Positions 52,774-63,231 of a stretch of DNA of 64,000 nt are shown here, piece by piece; the stretch's first letter is position 1, and the number at the start of each line of letters is the position of its first letter. Both the position numbers and the translations under genes were made by a program. The notes beneath the pieces are model-generated. The model made no database searches. It saw nothing but the letters and a program-made list of their open reading frames with translations, and was not told where the DNA came from. Source of the DNA: Bacteroidota bacterium (GTDB lineage: Bacteria > Bacteroidota > Bacteroidia > B-17B0 > Aurantibacillaceae); contig JAFDYI010000005.1 in the NCBI GenBank assembly GCA_018267475.1, forward strand, positions 124,001 through 188,000. The letters run 5' to 3'.

Positions 52774-55700
52774 TTATTTTATTAAAGTTACTATTCCTTG
52801 ATAGTTATGCCCTTTATTTAAAATATCACTAAAAGACACTTTCCATACATACACATCTTCTTGCAGGGTTTGTCTTGATGCATCGCCGTTCATGCTTCCA
52901 TTCCACGATTGTTCTAAACCGGTAGAATGATACAACAACAAGCCCCAACGGTCGTATATCCAAAGATTGTACGTGCTGTCTTTAATACCCATACCGGTGC
53001 CTTTAAAATTATCGTTCAAACCATCGCCGTTAGGTGTAAAAGAATTGGGTATGTAAAAAGTTACAATAGGTTTAATCTCTAACGTATTGGTGGTAGAATC
53101 TTTGCAGCCATACATATTGATAACCCATTGGGTAACGGTATAAACTTCGGTAACATCGGCATCGTCCGGGTTGCTGTAGGTATGATTAAAAATACCATTG
53201 CTGTAACTTACATTGTTTGACGAGTTGGCCGGTAAATAGGTATCTCCTAAGTTGTACATAACTCCATTAGCTCCGTATTGCAGGGTAGGTGTGTAGGTGC
53301 TAGCGCCCAGCGAGGTGTTAAAAAAGGTGATAACCGGTTCTGTAATATCGGCATCGGGCGGGTTGTACGAGAAACCTGCTTGCGGAACCGGATATGCTTC
53401 TATAAAGTTGTTTTTAGAAAGCGATTCGGTACAACCTTTATCCGTTGTTACGGTAAGCGATACCGAATAATACTGAGGCTGCGTGTGCGATGTGTTGTTG
53501 TATGTAACAGCGGGCTGGCTAGAGCCGCTTGATGAACCATTTCCTAAATTCCAGTTCCAAGAAACAATACTTCCGGTAGCCACTTTAGAACTGTCTATCA
53601 GTGTGGTGTAAAAAGGAGCGCATCCTTTTGTTACCCCCGTAAAGCTTACTACAGGGTTAGGATACACAATAACCGGTTGTACCGTATAAGACGAACAAGA
53701 GGGGTTAGAGTTGGTAGCTACTGTTAATTTTACCGAATCGGTGCCGGCAGGAGTTACCGTGTAAGAAGGATTTTGCGAAGTGCTTTCTACGCTTCCGTTA
53801 TTGCTCATATCCCATTGCCAAGAGTTTACCTGAACGCCTCCACATACCGAAGATAAATCGGTAAACAGTATTGGTTTTCCATCGCAAGCAGGCGCGTAAC
53901 TAAAGCTAGCCACGGGGTTGGGTTGCACGGCAATGCTAAAACTAATAGGAGGACTTGGGCAGCCATTTAACGAAGATACTACTGTAACTAAATTACTTAA
54001 AGGCGAGCAACCGGTGTTTTGTGCCGTAAAAGAGGGTATGGAAGGAGCCGTATAGGTGCCTACAATAGAACCCGATACCGAATAAGTAAATATAGTTAAG
54101 GTGTTGGTAGGGGTGCTATTAAAATTAATTTGAGGAACTACCGTTTTGGGGCAGTACGACAGATTAGGCATAGAAGACACCACCGGAGTTGGATAAACCG
54201 TTACGTAAGCCGTATCCGTTTTTCCCACACAACCATTTAAGGTGGGCGTATAGGTTATTTGCCCCGTTTGGTTCATCATCGTTCCATTAGCGGGTGCGGT
54301 ATAAGAAGCAGGTGTACCGGTACCGCTTGGCGGCATACCCACCGCGGCATTATTGGTTACAGTCCAATTGTAATGTACACCAGCTGCCGGGTTTGTTACT
54401 ATTATGGTAGGTGCAGGGATTATTGAAGTAGGACAGGCACTAAACGAGGTGGCCGTCATAGTAGGCAATGGTTTTACAAAAATAGTAAACGTAGAGTCCG
54501 GGCCTATACAACCATTTGCGGTAGCGGTGGCCGTTATCAATCCACTAATAAGAGCATTGGTGGCATTCGTTGTTACAAAAGAACCTATATTGGTCGTTCC
54601 GGTAGCCGCTAATCCTATGGCAGGATTGCTGTTTGTCCATGCTACGGTGGAGTTTGCCGGACAGGCCGTAAAATTAGCTACAGCAAGTGTTTGATTAGCA
54701 CAAAGGCTATCGTTAGGCATGTGGCTTAAATAAGGTGTTGGGTACACGCTTATAGTAAACGTGGCCGGAGGCCCATAACAATATAAGGTGTTCGTTCCTA
54801 TCACCCCCGCCGAAACAGGGTATCCCTCTACTGTATCTACCAATAAATTACAAGTTAAGTTTTTTGCAATAGCCGTATAATTGGGTATGGCATTTTGCCC
54901 TACCGTATCGGCCAAAGGAATACCGCCATGAGTGGCCGTTTGACCTGTAGAAGGATTAGGATAATTCACATAATATATAGTAGCTAAGGTAGGCAAAGCA
55001 GGCGAAGCGCTGCTGGTAGTAAAGGTTGTTTGCGCTGTGGTAACAGGCGTTCCCGGACAAAGGCTAAAACTAGCAGGGGCTGCAACCGTAGGGTTACAAA
55101 ACACCGTATAGGTACCTCCGGCGCTTACACCACAACCAAAATTAGTAGTAACGGTGTAAGAAATGCTATACGTATTGCAAGAAGCATAAGTATGAAAAGC
55201 CTCAGGAACGTTAGTGGTAGTATCAAAACCATCACCAAAACTCCACGTCCAAGTGGTAAGAGAATCGTGTATGCCCGGTGCCGCAGGAAGCGTAGAATAA
55301 TCATAAATACCCGACTGACTGCCTGCACAAACAGCGTCATAGCCTCCACTAAATACAGGGTTGGGATGTACAACCGCCGTAGTAGAAGCCGTACCGGCAC
55401 AACCACTGGTAGTAGTGGCCGTTAATACCACCGTATAAACACCTGCCGTAGCATACGTGTAAGTTACAGGGCCGGCAGTAGCGTTAGTACCCGAACCATC
55501 GCCCATATTCCAGTTCCATGTAGAAAAGCTGGCTTGACTGGGGGTATTATTAGTTAAAGTTGTTCCTAAAGTGTTACAAACCGTACTGGAGCTAATGCTT
55601 AATACCGGCATGGGGTTTACTACGGCATTGCCCGTAGCGGTAGCCGTGCAACCACCTACAGCTGTTACCGTAAGCGAAACAGGAAATGTGCCCGAAGCAG

Positions 55701-57798
55701 AATAGGTGTGATTATCGGTAGAAGTACTCACATTGTCGGTATTCGGAGCAACTCCGCCAAAGCTCCAATTATAGTTATTGATGCTAGCTGCCGGAGCCGA
55801 GGCTCCTGCATCAAATACAGAAGGACTGCCTTGGCAAACCTGCGCTACTGAAAAAGAAGCCGTAGGCTGCACATTGACTGTAGCATTTGCGGTAGCCGTT
55901 ACCGAACAACCTCCTACCGCCGTTACCGTTACCGTTACCGCGTAAGGACTACCCGCCGCGCTGGCATAAGTGTGAGTGGGGTTGGCAGCAGCAGCCGCAG
56001 GAGCTGTGCCGTCGCCATAATTCCACACATAAGTATAGCTGGTAGAAGTACAGGGCGTTGCCGCCGTAGTTGATGTAAACGCCGATGCTACACCCGCACA
56101 AACAGGGGGCACACTAAAGGCTTCTGTAGGACTTGGATTTATTTGCACCGTTTGCGTAGTAGTAGCATTACAAGCGGAAGTATTAACCGTAAGCGTTACC
56201 ACAAAATTACCGCAACTGGTGTAAGCGTGAGTTGTATTAGGAGATGCCGCCGTGGAAGTACCCACCGTTCCGTCACCAAAGTCCCAATTATAACCCGTTA
56301 TGGTAGCTCCACCCGTGGAGGTAGAAGTGTTGGTAAATTGCACGTTGTTGCCCAAATAACATTGCGGCGTATTGGTAGGCGAGTTGGAGGTAAACACCGC
56401 GTTAGGCCCGTTTACCACCGTGACGACCTTGGTAAGTGTAGCCGTACAAGAACCGCTGGTAGAATCTTTTAAGGTTATGGTGTAGGTGCCGGGCGTAGCA
56501 TAGTTATGCACCTGGTTGGCACCGCTGGCCGCATTGGTAACGGCTGAGCCGTCGCCCCAGTTCCAACTCCAATTTAAGATGCTGCCGCTGCTAACAGTGG
56601 AACCATCGGTAGCTGTAAGGGTAGTGCCGCAAGCCGTTTGTGTAGTAGAAAAACTAGGCACTGGGTCGGGTGAAGTTGTTAATGTAGCAAACATACTCGG
56701 CGCCGGGCATCCGGAAACCGAGGTTGTATTTAGAGTATAAGTACCCGCCACTGTAGTAGTTAAATTTTGAGAAGTACCTACCGTTGTTCCGGATGAGTTT
56801 ATCCAATTGTAGGTAGCAAATCCCGGCGGCCCTTGCAGTACCCCCGGCCCACCGCTGGGTACACACAGGCCATGAGCCGTGGTAATGATATTAGAACCAC
56901 ACATAGCATCTATATAAGCGTAGCCAAAGTGCCCCCCTTGATTACAATCACTCACAATAAAAGTAACCGCCATGGTGTGCCCGGAATAAGCAGGAGCCGT
57001 TAAATCTACCCCTACGCTGGTCCAAGGGTAGGTATAAACGGTAGCATCTGCTGAAGAAACCGACCAACCATTTAAAGCGCCTGAAGTAGGAGCCGTAGCA
57101 TCGTATTGGGTACAATTAATAACCGACCCGGTAGTCATGTCTGTAAAATCCACATGAAAATAGGGCTGCTCATTTACCGGATGCGAGCCACTTTGCAAGG
57201 CTACTGAATACATAAAAGTAAATATATTAGAAGACGGGCCTACTACAAAAGTATAAACCGCTTTTTCCATTTTATAGCCTGCGCAAGCATTATTTAATAA
57301 TAAAGCATAGTTTCCTCCCCCTGCCGATACAGCCGGTTGGCCGCTATACCCATCAGTACCCGTAATATCTTGACCCGGTGTTCCACAAGAACCGAATGTA
57401 CCTGTACGGTTTACCACCCAATAGTTGCCATCAGTAGCACCGGTTACGCAGGTATTACAAGGCAAATTTTGCCCGCTATTACTTGCAGAATAAAAAGTCC
57501 AACCGGTAGTGCCTCCGGTTTCAAAACCCGGGTTTACGCAAGAAGATGCGTTTACCACCGGAGGGGCGCCACGTTGCCCAAATTTATTGGGGTTTTGTTG
57601 GTAGTAAGTCCTGCGTTCTTTTAGCCTGGTACGGGCAAAATCCGTTTCCCACTGAGAAACCGTGCTGTTTTTAGAGCGTTGCAAAATTTGCTCAATATCC
57701 GCATCGGTCCACGTAGCGGGATTTACAATTTCCTGAGCTTGTGCTCTAATCCATAATACGCTTGATACAAAAGCGATAAGGGTAAAAATTTTCTTCAT
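52774..57798 (-). CDS. Giant PKD-repeat T9SS type B (CHU_C) protein
   Basis: A 1,674-residue secreted protein. Signal peptide 1-22 (ending RAQAQ), then a region with WTDADIEQILQRSKN and a carbohydrate-binding-like jelly roll (about 90-300; NPGFETGGTTGWTF). From about 385 to 960 it carries PKD modules one after another, each with WxWxxGDG (e.g. GYNWDFGDGTVG, TWNWNMGDGSG-type) and a THAY/HTY turn; further Ig-like/PKD modules run to about 1560. The CHU_C domain occupies about 1578-1674 (FYIPNSFTPNGDGLNDNF ... IYDRWGLLLY ... EDVYVWKV). Likely a filamentous adhesin or enzyme scaffold exported by the T9SS. Adjacent to porX but with its own terminator. Confidence 0.9.
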   Translation of the reverse strand: MKKIFTLIAFVSSVLWIRAQAQEIVNPATWTDADIEQILQRSKNSTVSQWETDFARTRLKERRTYYQQNPNKFGQRGAPPVVNASSCVNPGFETGGTTGWTFYSASNSGQNLPCNTCVTGATDGNYWVVNRTGTFGSCGTPGQDITGTDGYSGQPAVSAGGGNYALLLNNACAGYKMEKAVYTFVVGPSSNIFTFMYSVALQSGSHPVNEQPYFHVDFTDMTTGSVINCTQYDATAPTSGALNGWSVSSADATVYTYPWTSVGVDLTAPAYSGHTMAVTFIVSDCNQGGHFGYAYIDAMCGSNIITTAHGLCVPSGGPGVLQGPPGFATYNWINSSGTTVGTSQNLTTTVAGTYTLNTTSVSGCPAPSMFATLTTSPDPVPSFSTTQTACGTTLTATDGSTVSSGSILNWSWNWGDGSAVTNAASGANQVHNYATPGTYTITLKDSTSGSCTATLTKVVTVVNGPNAVFTSNSPTNTPQCYLGNNVQFTNTSTSTGGATITGYNWDFGDGTVGTSTAASPNTTHAYTSCGNFVVTLTVNTSACNATTTQTVQINPSPTEAFSVPPVCAGVASAFTSTTAATPCTSTSYTYVWNYGDGTAPAAAAANPTHTYASAAGSPYAVTVTVTAVGGCSVTATANATVNVQPTASFSVAQVCQGSPSVFDAGASAPAASINNYNWSFGGVAPNTDNVSTSTDNHTYSASGTFPVSLTVTAVGGCTATATGNAVVNPMPVLSISSSTVCNTLGTTLTNNTPSQASFSTWNWNMGDGSGTNATAGPVTYTYATAGVYTVVLTATTTSGCAGTASTTAVVHPNPVFSGGYDAVCAGSQSGIYDYSTLPAAPGIHDSLTTWTWSFGDGFDTTTNVPEAFHTYASCNTYSISYTVTTNFGCGVSAGGTYTVFCNPTVAAPASFSLCPGTPVTTAQTTFTTSSASPALPTLATIYYVNYPNPSTGQTATHGGIPLADTVGQNAIPNYTAIAKNLTCNLLVDTVEGYPVSAGVIGTNTLYCYGPPATFTISVYPTPYLSHMPNDSLCANQTLAVANFTACPANSTVAWTNSNPAIGLAATGTTNIGSFVTTNATNALISGLITATATANGCIGPDSTFTIFVKPLPTMTATSFSACPTSIIPAPTIIVTNPAAGVHYNWTVTNNAAVGMPPSGTGTPASYTAPANGTMMNQTGQITYTPTLNGCVGKTDTAYVTVYPTPVVSSMPNLSYCPKTVVPQINFNSTPTNTLTIFTYSVSGSIVGTYTAPSIPSFTAQNTGCSPLSNLVTVVSSLNGCPSPPISFSIAVQPNPVASFSYAPACDGKPILFTDLSSVCGGVQVNSWQWDMSNNGSVESTSQNPSYTVTPAGTDSVKLTVATNSNPSCSSYTVQPVIVYPNPVVSFTGVTKGCAPFYTTLIDSSKVATGSIVSWNWNLGNGSSSGSSQPAVTYNNTSHTQPQYYSVSLTVTTDKGCTESLSKNNFIEAYPVPQAGFSYNPPDADITEPVITFFNTSLGASTYTPTLQYGANGVMYNLGDTYLPANSSNNVSYSNGIFNHTYSNPDDADVTEVYTVTQWVINMYGCKDSTTNTLEIKPIVTFYIPNSFTPNGDGLNDNFKGTGMGIKDSTYNLWIYDRWGLLLYHSTGLEQSWNGSMNGDASRQTLQEDVYVWKVSFSDILNKGHNYQGIVTLIK

Positions 57799-60432: not shown

Positions 60433-60486
60433 TTATGAAACACAAAAAACATTTTTTATGAGTTACGTCATAATACATTCATAAAA
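60433..60486 (+). promoter_or_regulatory. Array of TTATGA/TCATAA half-sites (candidate operator)
   Basis: TTATGA occurs at 60433-60438 and 60456-60461; its inverse TCATAA at 60468-60473 and 60479-60484. The middle pair forms TTATGA-N6-TCATAA, and the outer right half-site extends the TTTTATGA / TCATAAAA symmetry (60454-60461 with 60479-60486). The cluster lies 8-60 bases upstream of the TACCTTTG promoter element and covers the -33 region. The arrangement suits a dimeric transcription factor, of unknown identity. Confidence 0.5.
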
Positions 60487-60493
60487 TAGTTGA

Positions 60494-60501
60494 TACCTTT
60501 G
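60494..60501 (+). promoter_or_regulatory. -7 promoter element of the metal-type operon (TACCTTTG)
   Basis: Exact TAnnTTTG match, 6 bases before the ATG at 60508, giving a near-leaderless transcript. No TTG at -33; the position is taken by the half-site array. Confidence 0.55.
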
Positions 60502-60507
60502 TCGGCG

Positions 60508-60891
60508 ATGCCTCATAAAATTTTTGCTATATTTTTTCTTAGCTTGTACAGCCTCGTTTTATTTAAGCCTTTATTCCCTTTTATAGATTATCTCCTTCAT
60601 AAAGAATACATCATTAAAAATCTATGCGAAAACCGAAATAAACCCAATATGCATTGCAATGGAAAATGCCATTTGATGAAACAATTAAAAAAAGCAAACC
60701 ACGAAGCCATACCCGAAGAAAACAACACAAAAAAAACAACACATCAAGAAGAAAACACAAGTCACTTGCGCTCGCACGATGCCTTTTACATTTGCCCCGC
60801 ATTCGTAAAAAAGCACGGGTTTACTCCTTTTTTAAAAGAAAAAATGCCTTCTCCTTTTAGCGGTACTATTTTTCATCCGCCTCAAGCATAA
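60508..60891 (+). CDS. Small membrane-anchored protein with HC-NGK-CH motif
   Basis: A 127-residue protein: one hydrophobic helix (about 4-30), then EYIIKNLCENRNKPNMHCN and GKCHLMKQLKKA. Cysteines are at 40, 50, 54 and 96; the block MHCNGKCHLM (48-57) places two Cys next to two His and two Met, a plausible metal or redox site. Similar Bacteroidota proteins with L-C-x-N-R...CNGKC-x-L-x-K-Q-L are familiar to me near metal-related outer-membrane genes, but I know no assigned function. A TTG at 60490 opens the frame earlier; the ATG at 60508 is preferred since the TTG precedes the promoter. First gene of the four-gene operon. Confidence 0.65.
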   Translation: MPHKIFAIFFLSLYSLVLFKPLFPFIDYLLHKEYIIKNLCENRNKPNMHCNGKCHLMKQLKKANHEAIPEENNTKKTTHQEENTSHLRSHDAFYICPAFVKKHGFTPFLKEKMPSPFSGTIFHPPQA

Positions 60892-60963
60892 CGTTTGCTT
60901 TATTTTTAAAAGGCGCACCAAGCGCTCCTCTAAACGTTGTCTTAATACTTAATCAAAAAAAAC

Positions 60964-62019
60964 ATGAAAAGGATATTTTTTATTCCTTTTGTGTGGTTGC
61001 ACCTAATTTTAGGAGCCCATAACAAAAAGGAAGATAGCACCGCTGTTTGCGCTATTCATTGTACAAAAAACAACATAGCCCCGGCAGGTATTATGACCGA
61101 CCATGTACACCAGCGCAAACATTTTTCTTTTGCATATAGTTATATGTTTATGAATATGAGCGGTAACAAAAGAGGTACAAATGCGGTTAGCGACGAACAG
61201 GTTTTTACCAACTATATGATGTCGCCCTCTAAAATGAATATGCAAATGCACATGCTGATGCCTATGTATGGGATAAATAACCGCTTGAGCATTATGGCTA
61301 TGATACCTTACAGCATAATCCGTATGAGTATGCACGAAATGCCTAACCAAAGCCAGAATATGCCGGATATGTGCGACATGAACAGTTCATCTTCTGCCAA
61401 CAGCAACTCGGGCTTAGGAGACGTAAAACTATACCTAATGTATAACTTTTTGCGCTCTTGTACACACCGATTGGTTGCAAGCGCAGGGGTAAGCCTTCCT
61501 ACAGCCAACATTCGTAGTGCAAATACTTCTAGCAGCATCATTCCTTATTGTATGCAGGTAGGTACAGGCAGCTACCACATACTCTCCAGCTTGGTATATG
61601 TAAAAGAAGGAAGGCTTTTTTCTTTTGGTGCAGCCCTGCAAGGAAGTATAAGCACCGGCAGTAATAAACAGGGATACCGTTGGGGTAATGAATGCAGTGT
61701 AAGCCCCTGGCTTGCATACAAACCTATAAAATTTATGGGAATTGCCGCCCGAGCAGAGGCTTACTATGCAGGGGCTATACAAGGTTGGGACAATAGCATC
61801 AATCAGTTAGCCGGTAACGATCCGTCGGCTGATGTAAAAAACTATGGTTCGCAGCAACGGCTTGACCTTTTTTTAGGATTAAATTTTTATGTACCCGTTG
61901 CTTCATCACAAACAGCATGCGTGCTGATAGAATATGGAAAGCCCTTATACCAAAACCTGCAAGGCCTGCAAATGCCTTTTCAAAATATACTAAACCTAAG
62001 ACTTCAGTATAACTTTTAA
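60964..62019 (+). CDS. Met-rich outer-membrane protein (Phenol_MetA/transporter-like barrel)
   Basis: A 351-residue exported protein (signal about 1-18). Residues 44-140 hold 20 methionines in MxM and MxxM spacing plus several His (e.g. SKMNMQMHMLMPMYG, MSMHEMPNQS, MPDMCDM). From about 145 the protein is beta-barrel-like (GLGDVKLYLMYNFL, RLVASAGVSLPTANI, RLDLFLGLNFYVPV) and ends in an aromatic residue, NLRLQYNF. The Met content suggests binding of Cu(I) or Ag(I). It is expressed from the same unit as the flanking MbnP-like gene. Function in transport or sensing is inferred. Confidence 0.65.
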   Translation: MKRIFFIPFVWLHLILGAHNKKEDSTAVCAIHCTKNNIAPAGIMTDHVHQRKHFSFAYSYMFMNMSGNKRGTNAVSDEQVFTNYMMSPSKMNMQMHMLMPMYGINNRLSIMAMIPYSIIRMSMHEMPNQSQNMPDMCDMNSSSSANSNSGLGDVKLYLMYNFLRSCTHRLVASAGVSLPTANIRSANTSSSIIPYCMQVGTGSYHILSSLVYVKEGRLFSFGAALQGSISTGSNKQGYRWGNECSVSPWLAYKPIKFMGIAARAEAYYAGAIQGWDNSINQLAGNDPSADVKNYGSQQRLDLFLGLNFYVPVASSQTACVLIEYGKPLYQNLQGLQMPFQNILNLRLQYNF

Positions 62020-62058
62020 CCCTCTCTAAAACACATTTTAAACACCAATAAAAAAACT

Positions 62059-62823
62059 ATGAATATCATGAAAAAAATAATTTTAACACAACTGGTAATA
62101 AGTCTTCTCTTTTTTTCTTGCAAAAAGAAAGAAGAAACACAAACGCCGCCCACCCCCTTAGGCACCGCAGCTTTGCACTTACACACCAACATAAATAATA
62201 ACGAAGTAGATTCCGGCATGATAGCCTCCGACGACTTAGGCAGAAAAATAAAACTAAACATAGCTCAGTTTTATATTTCAAACGTAACGCTAAAACAAAG
62301 TAATGGAAGTACCGTGGCGCTTACAGGAATGTATCTACTAAAAAACATACAACAAGAGGAATATGTGTTGGGACAAATACCTACCGGAAATTACAGCTCG
62401 ATTTCTTTTAACGTGGGTATTGACGCCGCTACTAATGCTACCCTCCCCGCTTCGCATACGGGTATATTGGCCGCGCAAACCCCGCCTATGTGGTTTGGTA
62501 GCGCTTTGCAAGGCTATATTTTTATGAATATAGAAGGCGCGAGCGACAGTACCGGAACCGGCAGCTACTTCCGCTCTTTTGCCTATCAAATAGGTACTAA
62601 CGTTTTATATCAACATGTTACGCTTACATACAATACGGCTTCTCCGCTTGTAATAACAAGTCAAGGCACTTCGCTTATACACGTTACATGCGACTACGGC
62701 TACTTATTGAAAAATGTCAGCTCTTTTAAAACGCAAAACGCCGTAGCGACTCCTTTTAACAGCGATTCTGTTTTAATAAAACAAATAGCCAACAACATTC
62801 CTGCCATGTTTAGATTTGAATAA
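62059..62823 (+). CDS. MbnP-like lipoprotein (copper-binding family)
   Basis: A 254-residue lipoprotein with lipobox LFFSC (Cys21). After a short linker it shows the MbnP-family pattern: AALHLHTNINN (His40, His42), KIKLNIAQFYISNVTLKQ (64-80), TGNYSSISFNVGID (109-122) and PPMWFGSALQGYIFMNIEG (142-160, Trp145). In methanotrophs MbnP binds copper and has a tryptophan modified by the di-haem partner MbnH; no MbnH gene is here. The four-Cys variant of the family is also not matched, as few Cys are present. Assignment to the family is based on the pattern; copper binding here is inferred. A second ATG at 62068 is also possible. Confidence 0.65.
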   Translation: MNIMKKIILTQLVISLLFFSCKKKEETQTPPTPLGTAALHLHTNINNNEVDSGMIASDDLGRKIKLNIAQFYISNVTLKQSNGSTVALTGMYLLKNIQQEEYVLGQIPTGNYSSISFNVGIDAATNATLPASHTGILAAQTPPMWFGSALQGYIFMNIEGASDSTGTGSYFRSFAYQIGTNVLYQHVTLTYNTASPLVITSQGTSLIHVTCDYGYLLKNVSSFKTQNAVATPFNSDSVLIKQIANNIPAMFRFE

Positions 62824-62825
62824 TA

Positions 62826-63218
62826 ATGAAAAGGAAACATCATGCGAGCCTCTCTATTTTAGGTATAACTAGTTTGTTGTTCTTTTTATGTTCTTGCCAG
62901 AAAAAAGAAAATACTTCATCGCAAGTTTTGCCCGGAGTAGTATCTTTTAGTCAAGACATTGTTCCTATATTCAATGCTTCTTGTCTTGCAAGCGGCTGCC
63001 ATGCCGGGGGGAGCCCGGCAGCTAACCTAAACTTAACATCAGGCATGGCCTACACTCAATTGTTTTCAAAACACGAAATAGACACCATAAACGCCAACAA
63101 TAGTGTTTTGTACATAGAGGTGCAGTCGGGGTCTATGCCTAAAAACGGCGCCATGCTTAGTAATTATCAAATAGGGCTTATCCAAAAATGGATACAACAA
63201 AAAGCGAAGAACAATTAA
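62826..63218 (+). CDS. Single-haem c-type cytochrome lipoprotein with CX4CH motif
   Basis: A 130-residue lipoprotein (lipobox FLCSC, Cys24). Only one haem motif is visible: Cys53-LASG-Cys58-His59, four residues between the cysteines instead of two. A possible distal ligand is Met104 in SGSMPKNG. The surrounding FSQDIVPIFNASC and HAGGSPAANLNL resemble the planctomycete-type cytochrome domain found in Bacteroidota. It begins 2 bp after the MbnP-like stop codon, so they are co-translated. Whether haem is truly attached is not proven. Stop codon lies in the loop of the terminator. Confidence 0.7.
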   Translation: MKRKHHASLSILGITSLLFFLCSCQKKENTSSQVLPGVVSFSQDIVPIFNASCLASGCHAGGSPAANLNLTSGMAYTQLFSKHEIDTINANNSVLYIEVQSGSMPKNGAMLSNYQIGLIQKWIQQKAKNN

Positions 63219-63231
63219 GTTCTTCGCTTTT
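63200..63231. terminator. Perfect terminator overlapping the stop codon; shared by convergent genes
   Basis: A 13-bp perfect stem (63200-63212 with 63219-63231) with AATTAA loop containing the TAA stop of the cytochrome gene. U-tracts are present on both strands, so it can end both this operon and the convergent peptidyl-prolyl isomerase gene. Confidence 0.9.

Follow-up and report, generated by a model that had tools for sequence, protein, structure and literature searches.

How does an MbnP-like protein work in an operon that has no gene for MbnH, and what would such an operon handle? The question is raised by four genes, here called A, B, C and D, found in a 64,000-nucleotide stretch of a Bacteroidota genome of the family Aurantibacillaceae (assembly GCA_018267475.1, contig JAFDYI010000005.1, positions 124,001 to 188,000, forward strand); this whole stretch is called the window. 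MbnP function has been tied to MbnH, which turns a Trp of MbnP into kynurenine and is thought to be its maturation or activation partner. An earlier reading of the window made from its letters (the sequence-only reading) had proposed an envelope module for copper or silver, with an MbnP and without MbnH, D standing in MbnH's place. Our analysis upholds this proposal, by the conserved order of the genes, an exchange of partners that spans a whole clade, and the copper genes found as neighbours. We hold with about even confidence that the operon is an envelope module handling Cu(I), possibly silver, and a D-type variant of the MbnP system.

The four open reading frames lie on the + strand in the order A-B-C-D, and their coordinates (Table 1) match exactly the spacers of 72, 39 and 2 bp reported earlier. 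Below, L numbers designate loci and G numbers genomes, G000 being the genome of the window. Scanning a collection of species genomes with the B alignment gave 68 loci, of which 56 have a strong B (>250 bits). Where the contig left room, A immediately precedes B in 47 of 50 strong-B loci; B is followed by C in 42 of 46, and by both C and D, in this order, in 34 of 46. Of the 40 strong-B loci that had room both upstream and downstream, 29 showed the complete order A-B-C-D. Searching relatives with C revealed it in two congeners (L023 and L031) and, from two further families of the class, at L027 and L029. In a sample of 395 genomes of the class, the top D homologues adjoin C, and 11 of 12 such loci, once completed, have all four genes; carriers of the operon amount to about 15 genomes, or ~4 per cent of the sample. 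As judged from gene order, this recurrence across many Bacteroidota families exceeds chance, and we conclude from it that the operon is real, old and patchily distributed. Conservation of the four genes elsewhere was the test on which the sequence-only reading had staked itself, and it survives.

A separate observation concerns family f4, a small unrelated lipoprotein. At L094, L097 and L099 it takes the place of the MbnP-like gene, with B on one side and a D-like cytochrome on the other. It also occurs divergently beside A-B-C-D, where a second barrel (f5) and an HMA protein (f6) accompany it.

C matches the Pfam family MbnP (PF20243) with an E value of 8.6e-26 (91.4 bits, for a curated cut-off of 27). 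Its AlphaFold2 model has a predicted local distance difference test score (pLDDT) of 92, and its PDB matches at E<=0.001 consist only of the six chains of MbnP 7l6g. Against the NCBIfam equivalog TIGR04052, it scored 24.4 bits, far below the cut-off of 140. D-linked C proteins share a His-x-His strand, an M-W-F-G-like segment and an H-xxx-D-Y-like segment, and H40, H42, M144 and H208 of C are invariant in 45 aligned D-type proteins. MbnH-linked MbnPs have W-x-W in 15 of 16 cases, without this set of histidines; one intermediate, L036, combines HFH and WSW. C itself carries MWFGSALQG in place of MFWAWNTG, and so lacks the W-x-W of the MbnH-linked type; its sole Trp directly follows M144. A tree of 78 C proteins, computed with the motif columns left out, separated the D-linked from the MbnH-linked proteins, the partner changing exactly once between the two sides. 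In this tree, the D-linked MbnP-like proteins are the sister clade of the MbnH-linked MbnPs.

No di-haem MauG-like MbnH is encoded beside C: the next gene is D, and there are zero PF03150 (MauG/CCP) genes at the locus. PF03150 is moreover absent from G051 and G047, two 100% complete genomes that both have A-B-C-D, which means that the D-type C cannot depend on a MauG/CCP protein there. Elsewhere in the window genome there are MauG-like genes, and a canonical MbnP that stands alone (L001). It was also observed that a canonical W-x-W MbnP and an MbnH-like gene of this genome (L147 and L153; G000:C3 and C12) are non-adjacent, on separate contigs. No description of the D-type operon was found in the open-access library searched, where little concerns MbnP/MbnH.

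The nature of D was examined through its homologues. At one aligned site these carry CX2CH (L066, L127, L139), CX4CH (most of them) or CX5CH (the L051 group), the Cys/Cys/His being invariant, and the downstream MP is conserved in most of them. A spacing that varies around a single Cys-Cys-His set, and includes the canonical form, fits the prediction of haem attachment; on these motifs, D is a predicted c-type haem protein. A cytochrome c6 structure matched D in the PDB with an E value of 0.01, and the Pfam PSCyt1 score of one member of the D family fell just below the cut-off (21.2 versus 22). The unusual CX5CH haem-type motif was seen in the D homologues of L051, L052, L054, L057, L061 and L108.

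Compared with MbnH and MauG, D has one CX4CH motif, 130 amino acids (aa) and no PF03150 match. The suggestion that D is a functional substitute of MbnH finds no support in the form given: D is small and mono-haem, has no CCP/MauG domain, and its partner C is devoid of W-x-W. With the loss of W-x-W from C, no obvious Trp is left for an MbnH-like oxidation. Histidines appear to have been used to rebuild the site in C, and the task of D is more likely a different one from that of MbnH, namely electron transfer to copper.

The two upstream genes are also distinctive. The AlphaFold2 model of B (pLDDT 84.7) is closest, in the PDB, to the COG4313 outer-membrane channel 4rl8 (E 1.3e-10). B contains 25 Met in 351 aa, and M93, M97, M99, M121 and M197 are invariant in 46 aligned homologues. 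The Met count is 21-37 in D-type barrels, versus 6-11 in barrels of MbnH-linked or H-type loci. Along strands 86-103 and 108-125, methionines (91-101, 111, 113, 121 and 123) alternate with hydrophobic residues (98, 100, 102, 108, 110, 112 and 116). Such an alternation suggests that the Met side faces the pore, opposite the lipid-facing residues, and that the methionines of B would line the pore face. In A, residues C40, C50, G52, C54, L56, P124 and P125 are invariant in 12 aligned sequences, and all A relatives compared, including those of MbnH loci, keep CxGKC or CxGSC, another Cys and the terminal PP. The sequence-only reading had described three products as rich in Cys, His or Met. This is correct for A (4 Cys, 10 His) and B, and weaker for C and D; for these two, conserved positions matter rather than composition. 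Neither A, B nor D has a Pfam or NCBIfam match above cut-off; herpesvirus Pfam families came up for A and D with scores below cut-off, and were dismissed as chance.

Which metal is concerned was approached through the neighbours of the operon and of its homologues. A SCO1/SenC gene is found directly after D at L043 and L049, and other neighbours encode a secreted HMA-domain protein (family f6, 18 loci), YHS proteins, CtaB and cytochrome oxidase (cox genes). Outside Bacteroidota, one B homologue lies in the order cusF-B-cusB-cusA (L098), and another has a multicopper oxidase and a copper ATPase as neighbours (L096). Given these SCO1, HMA, YHS, Cus and copper-ATPase neighbours, copper or silver is the likely substrate of the module. 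Plasmid homologues of B from Ruegeria, Methylocystis and Methylosinus were discarded, being weak and having neighbours that are uninformative on function. The most distant B homologues (L104, L105 and L107), with YfiR/GGDEF-like neighbours, were excluded on the view that the barrel serves another purpose there.

The promoter region gives a hint as to when the operon is expressed. A -7 element preceded by half-sites had been noted earlier upstream of A; the element is indeed TACCTTTG, and the half-sites form a perfect 16-bp dyad. TAAGTTTG is present at a similar position in congeners L023, L025 and L031. The dyad centre is 29.5 bp from the TAnnTTTG element, which puts it near -41.5 if transcription starts 5-7 bp past the -7 element; a position near -41.5 is usual for activators of the Crp/Fnr family. 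The exact pattern TATGA-N6-TCATA has 8 copies in the genome, and the reversed control pattern 4. In exactly 3 of the 8 dyads, TAnnTTTG is found at 29.5 or 30.5 bp from the centre: these are the A promoter, a nor promoter heading an operon whose last genes are norC- and norB-like, and a nos promoter heading cytochrome c-nosZ-(196 aa)-nosL-nosD-nosF-nosY. Given the density of TAnnTTTG, the chance that 2 of the 7 other dyads have a -7 element at such a spacing is ~2e-4. The same dyad and spacing precede the nos operons of three other members of the family (G027, G016 and G392). As the nos and nor promoters have this dyad and spacing too, co-activation of the operon with N2O and NO reduction is probable in the window genome.

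Some features of these denitrification loci are worth recording. A Crp/Fnr-family gene (L161 1589-2182, G000:C32), with a one-mismatch copy of the dyad and a -7 element upstream, is a candidate autoregulated regulator. The nos operon is a complete clade II operon (L157, G000:C17:34000-48000) that includes a truncated-haemoglobin-like gene after nosY; after it come two small, exported proteins rich in Cys, of which one has CC pairs and, like A, a PP late in its sequence. The operon with the norC-/norB-like genes (L145 4020-8626, G000:C17:56000-70000) is odd in that two beta-eliminating lyase (tryptophanase-like) genes lead it; a divergent Fasciclin gene is found on the other side.

The mechanism that we infer, from the metal and the direction of its transport to the role of D, the relay by A and delivery to NosZ, would run as follows. 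B would pass copper as Cu(I) along its Met ladders, and C would capture it at the His site, with no need of kynurenine or MbnH. D may control the redox state of C-bound copper, for capture or release, and A, membrane-anchored and bearing the CxGKC thiol motif, may relay copper at the inner membrane. A Crp/Fnr-type regulator common to nos and nor probably turns the operon on in denitrification, and copper would then reach NosZ and other copper enzymes. A more specific proposal, which we regard as possible rather than probable, is that of outer-membrane Cu(I) acquisition in which a His site and a mono-haem partner replace the Trp-kynurenine/MbnH chemistry, recruited here to the denitrification regulon for supplying copper to clade II N2O reductase. 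Several observations count against this picture of a copper module with D as partner of C and a role in denitrification. Efflux and uptake contexts both occur around operon homologues, and these contexts do not settle the direction of transport. A D-type C is found without D at L024, L075, L081, L083, L086, L087 and L090; as some loci keep A-B-C without D, D is not essential. A-B-C is also carried by a cultured relative, Cytophaga aurantiaca DSM 3654. Over the class, NosZ is not associated with the operon (6 of 15 versus 127 of 395, p 0.34), and the dyad was not found before A in congeners, with one near match in G191. These last two results make the denitrification link lineage-specific at best, and the idea of a general NosZ-specific copper supplier was dropped for lack of association over the class.

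The same neighbours can be read in terms of copper or silver detoxification, excess metal being bound and expelled, with B as the exit channel and C and D as a sequestering or oxidising pair, as in Cus/Cop. The B homologues from outside Bacteroidota, between CusF and CusB/CusA or near a multicopper oxidase and a copper ATPase, argue for it, as do the HMA and YHS neighbours. We nevertheless consider it unlikely: the window operon contains no gene for an RND pump, a copper ATPase or a copper-sensing regulator, its homologues have copper-requiring neighbours too (SCO1, CtaB and cox genes), and its promoter has a nos/nor-type site, not an obvious copper-stress site. Alternatively, D could be a maturation or activation partner of C, its single haem making an oxidative modification other than kynurenine. 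The strict exchange of D for MbnH on the C tree is consistent with this, and so is the position of D directly 3′ of C, with gaps of a few bp. CorA/MopE provides a precedent: there, the genes of a haem protein and of a modified copper protein are co-transcribed (PMC3912023). However, a domain of ~100 residues with one haem and a conserved Met (probable His/Met ligation) is unlike MauG/MbnH, C has no W-x-W motif, and several genomes have C without an adjoining D; maturation by D thus seems improbable. Another metal or redox task, for example with iron, or electron transfer through the barrel and a surface cytochrome, would make the copper neighbours incidental. A barrel with an outer lipoprotein cytochrome does resemble electron conduits, and one distant B homologue, on a Methylosinus plasmid, is annotated next to feoB. 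But the Met ladders and the MbnP fold point rather to soft Cu(I)/Ag(I), a conduit needs more than a single haem, and there are several independent copper neighbours, so that we find such a task very improbable.

Table 1. Positions, in the window, of the features of the A-B-C-D operon.
Feature	Positions	Strand	Basis or remark
Dyad TATGA-GTTACG-TCATA, predicted Crp/Fnr-type operator	60457..60472	+	Genome-wide dyad comparison
-7 element TACCTTTG, Bacteroidota type, predicted near-leaderless start	60494..60501	+	6 bp upstream of the A start codon (ATG)
Gene A, 127 aa, one N-terminal hydrophobic helix, C-terminal PP	60508..60891	+	12-sequence alignment
HCNGKCH motif of A	60652-60672	+	
Gene B, 351 aa, predicted 12-strand outer-membrane channel	60964..62019	+	AlphaFold2 and PDB match
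Met ladder of B, M91-M101	61234-61266		
Met ladder of B, M111-M123	61294-61332		
Gene C, 254 aa lipoprotein, MbnP fold	62059..62823	+	PF20243 match, AlphaFold2, PDB search
H40-x-H42 of C	62176-62184		
M144-W145 of C	62488-62493		
H208 of C	62680-62682		
Gene D, 130 aa lipoprotein, predicted mono-haem c-type cytochrome	62826..63218	+	Haem motif invariant, Met and Trp conserved
C53-X4-C58-H59 of D (CLASGCH, CX4CH)	62982-63002		
Conserved MP of D (M104-P105)			
Terminator-like hairpin, 13-bp stem, 6-nt loop, T run	63200..63231	+	Overlaps the D stop codon, between convergent genes

The terminator announced by the sequence-only reading corresponds to the terminator-like hairpin at the end of the operon, and a convergent peptidyl-prolyl isomerase gene lies downstream of D. 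On the other side, the upstream neighbours of A are serS, an OmpH-like gene and a PRA-PH/MazG-type gene. Farther upstream than serS, the opposite strand of the window encodes a surface protein of 1674 aa (52774-57798), which is rich in repeats and has a C-terminal end of the gliding type.

A large sister clade in which MbnH was swapped for a mono-haem cytochrome, with a matching change of the presumed metal site and a Met-ladder channel, amounts to a natural experiment on the roles of the partners, with residues that can be tested. Nitrous oxide is a greenhouse gas, and in the window bacterium the module has the same regulatory site as the genes removing it. To our knowledge, little is established on how Bacteroidota obtain the copper of clade II N2O reductase, which acts as a nitrous oxide sink. 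With a promoter architecture in common, a direct link between the operon and NosZ copper becomes testable.

Among known systems, the Cus/Cop copper-silver systems resemble the operon by their Met-rich metal path and by the distant B homologue found in cusF-B-cusB-cusA, but they differ by the RND pump, P-type ATPase and multicopper oxidase that the window operon is without. B, with its predicted 12-strand barrel, has its closest structural match in the COG4313 channels (PDB 4rl8), from which it is set apart by its Met ladders, its lack of a Pfam or NCBIfam match and its copper-operon setting. MbnP/MbnH (TIGR04052/TIGR04039; Methylosinus trichosporium MbnP, PDB 7l6g) is similar in that C has the MbnP domain and fold, with a haem-protein gene next to it; here, however, MbnH is replaced by the mono-haem lipoprotein D, genes A and B are added, and C has His-x-His and a further His, and no W-x-W. 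In CorA/CorB and MopE/SACCP of methanotrophs, an envelope copper protein is likewise encoded next to a haem protein (PMC3912023, PMC3423442). Their copper proteins belong to another sequence family than C, and their partner is di-haem whereas D is mono-haem. The copper site of CorA, Kyn62-x-His64 and His114, consists of two His and a modified Trp (PMC3912023); C does not have this combination of two His with a Trp-derived kynurenine, as a His-x-His occupies the position that would correspond, with His where CorA has Kyn. The layout Kyn62-x-His64...His114 is nevertheless similar to His40-x-His42...His208 of C, a likeness of analogy, not of homology.

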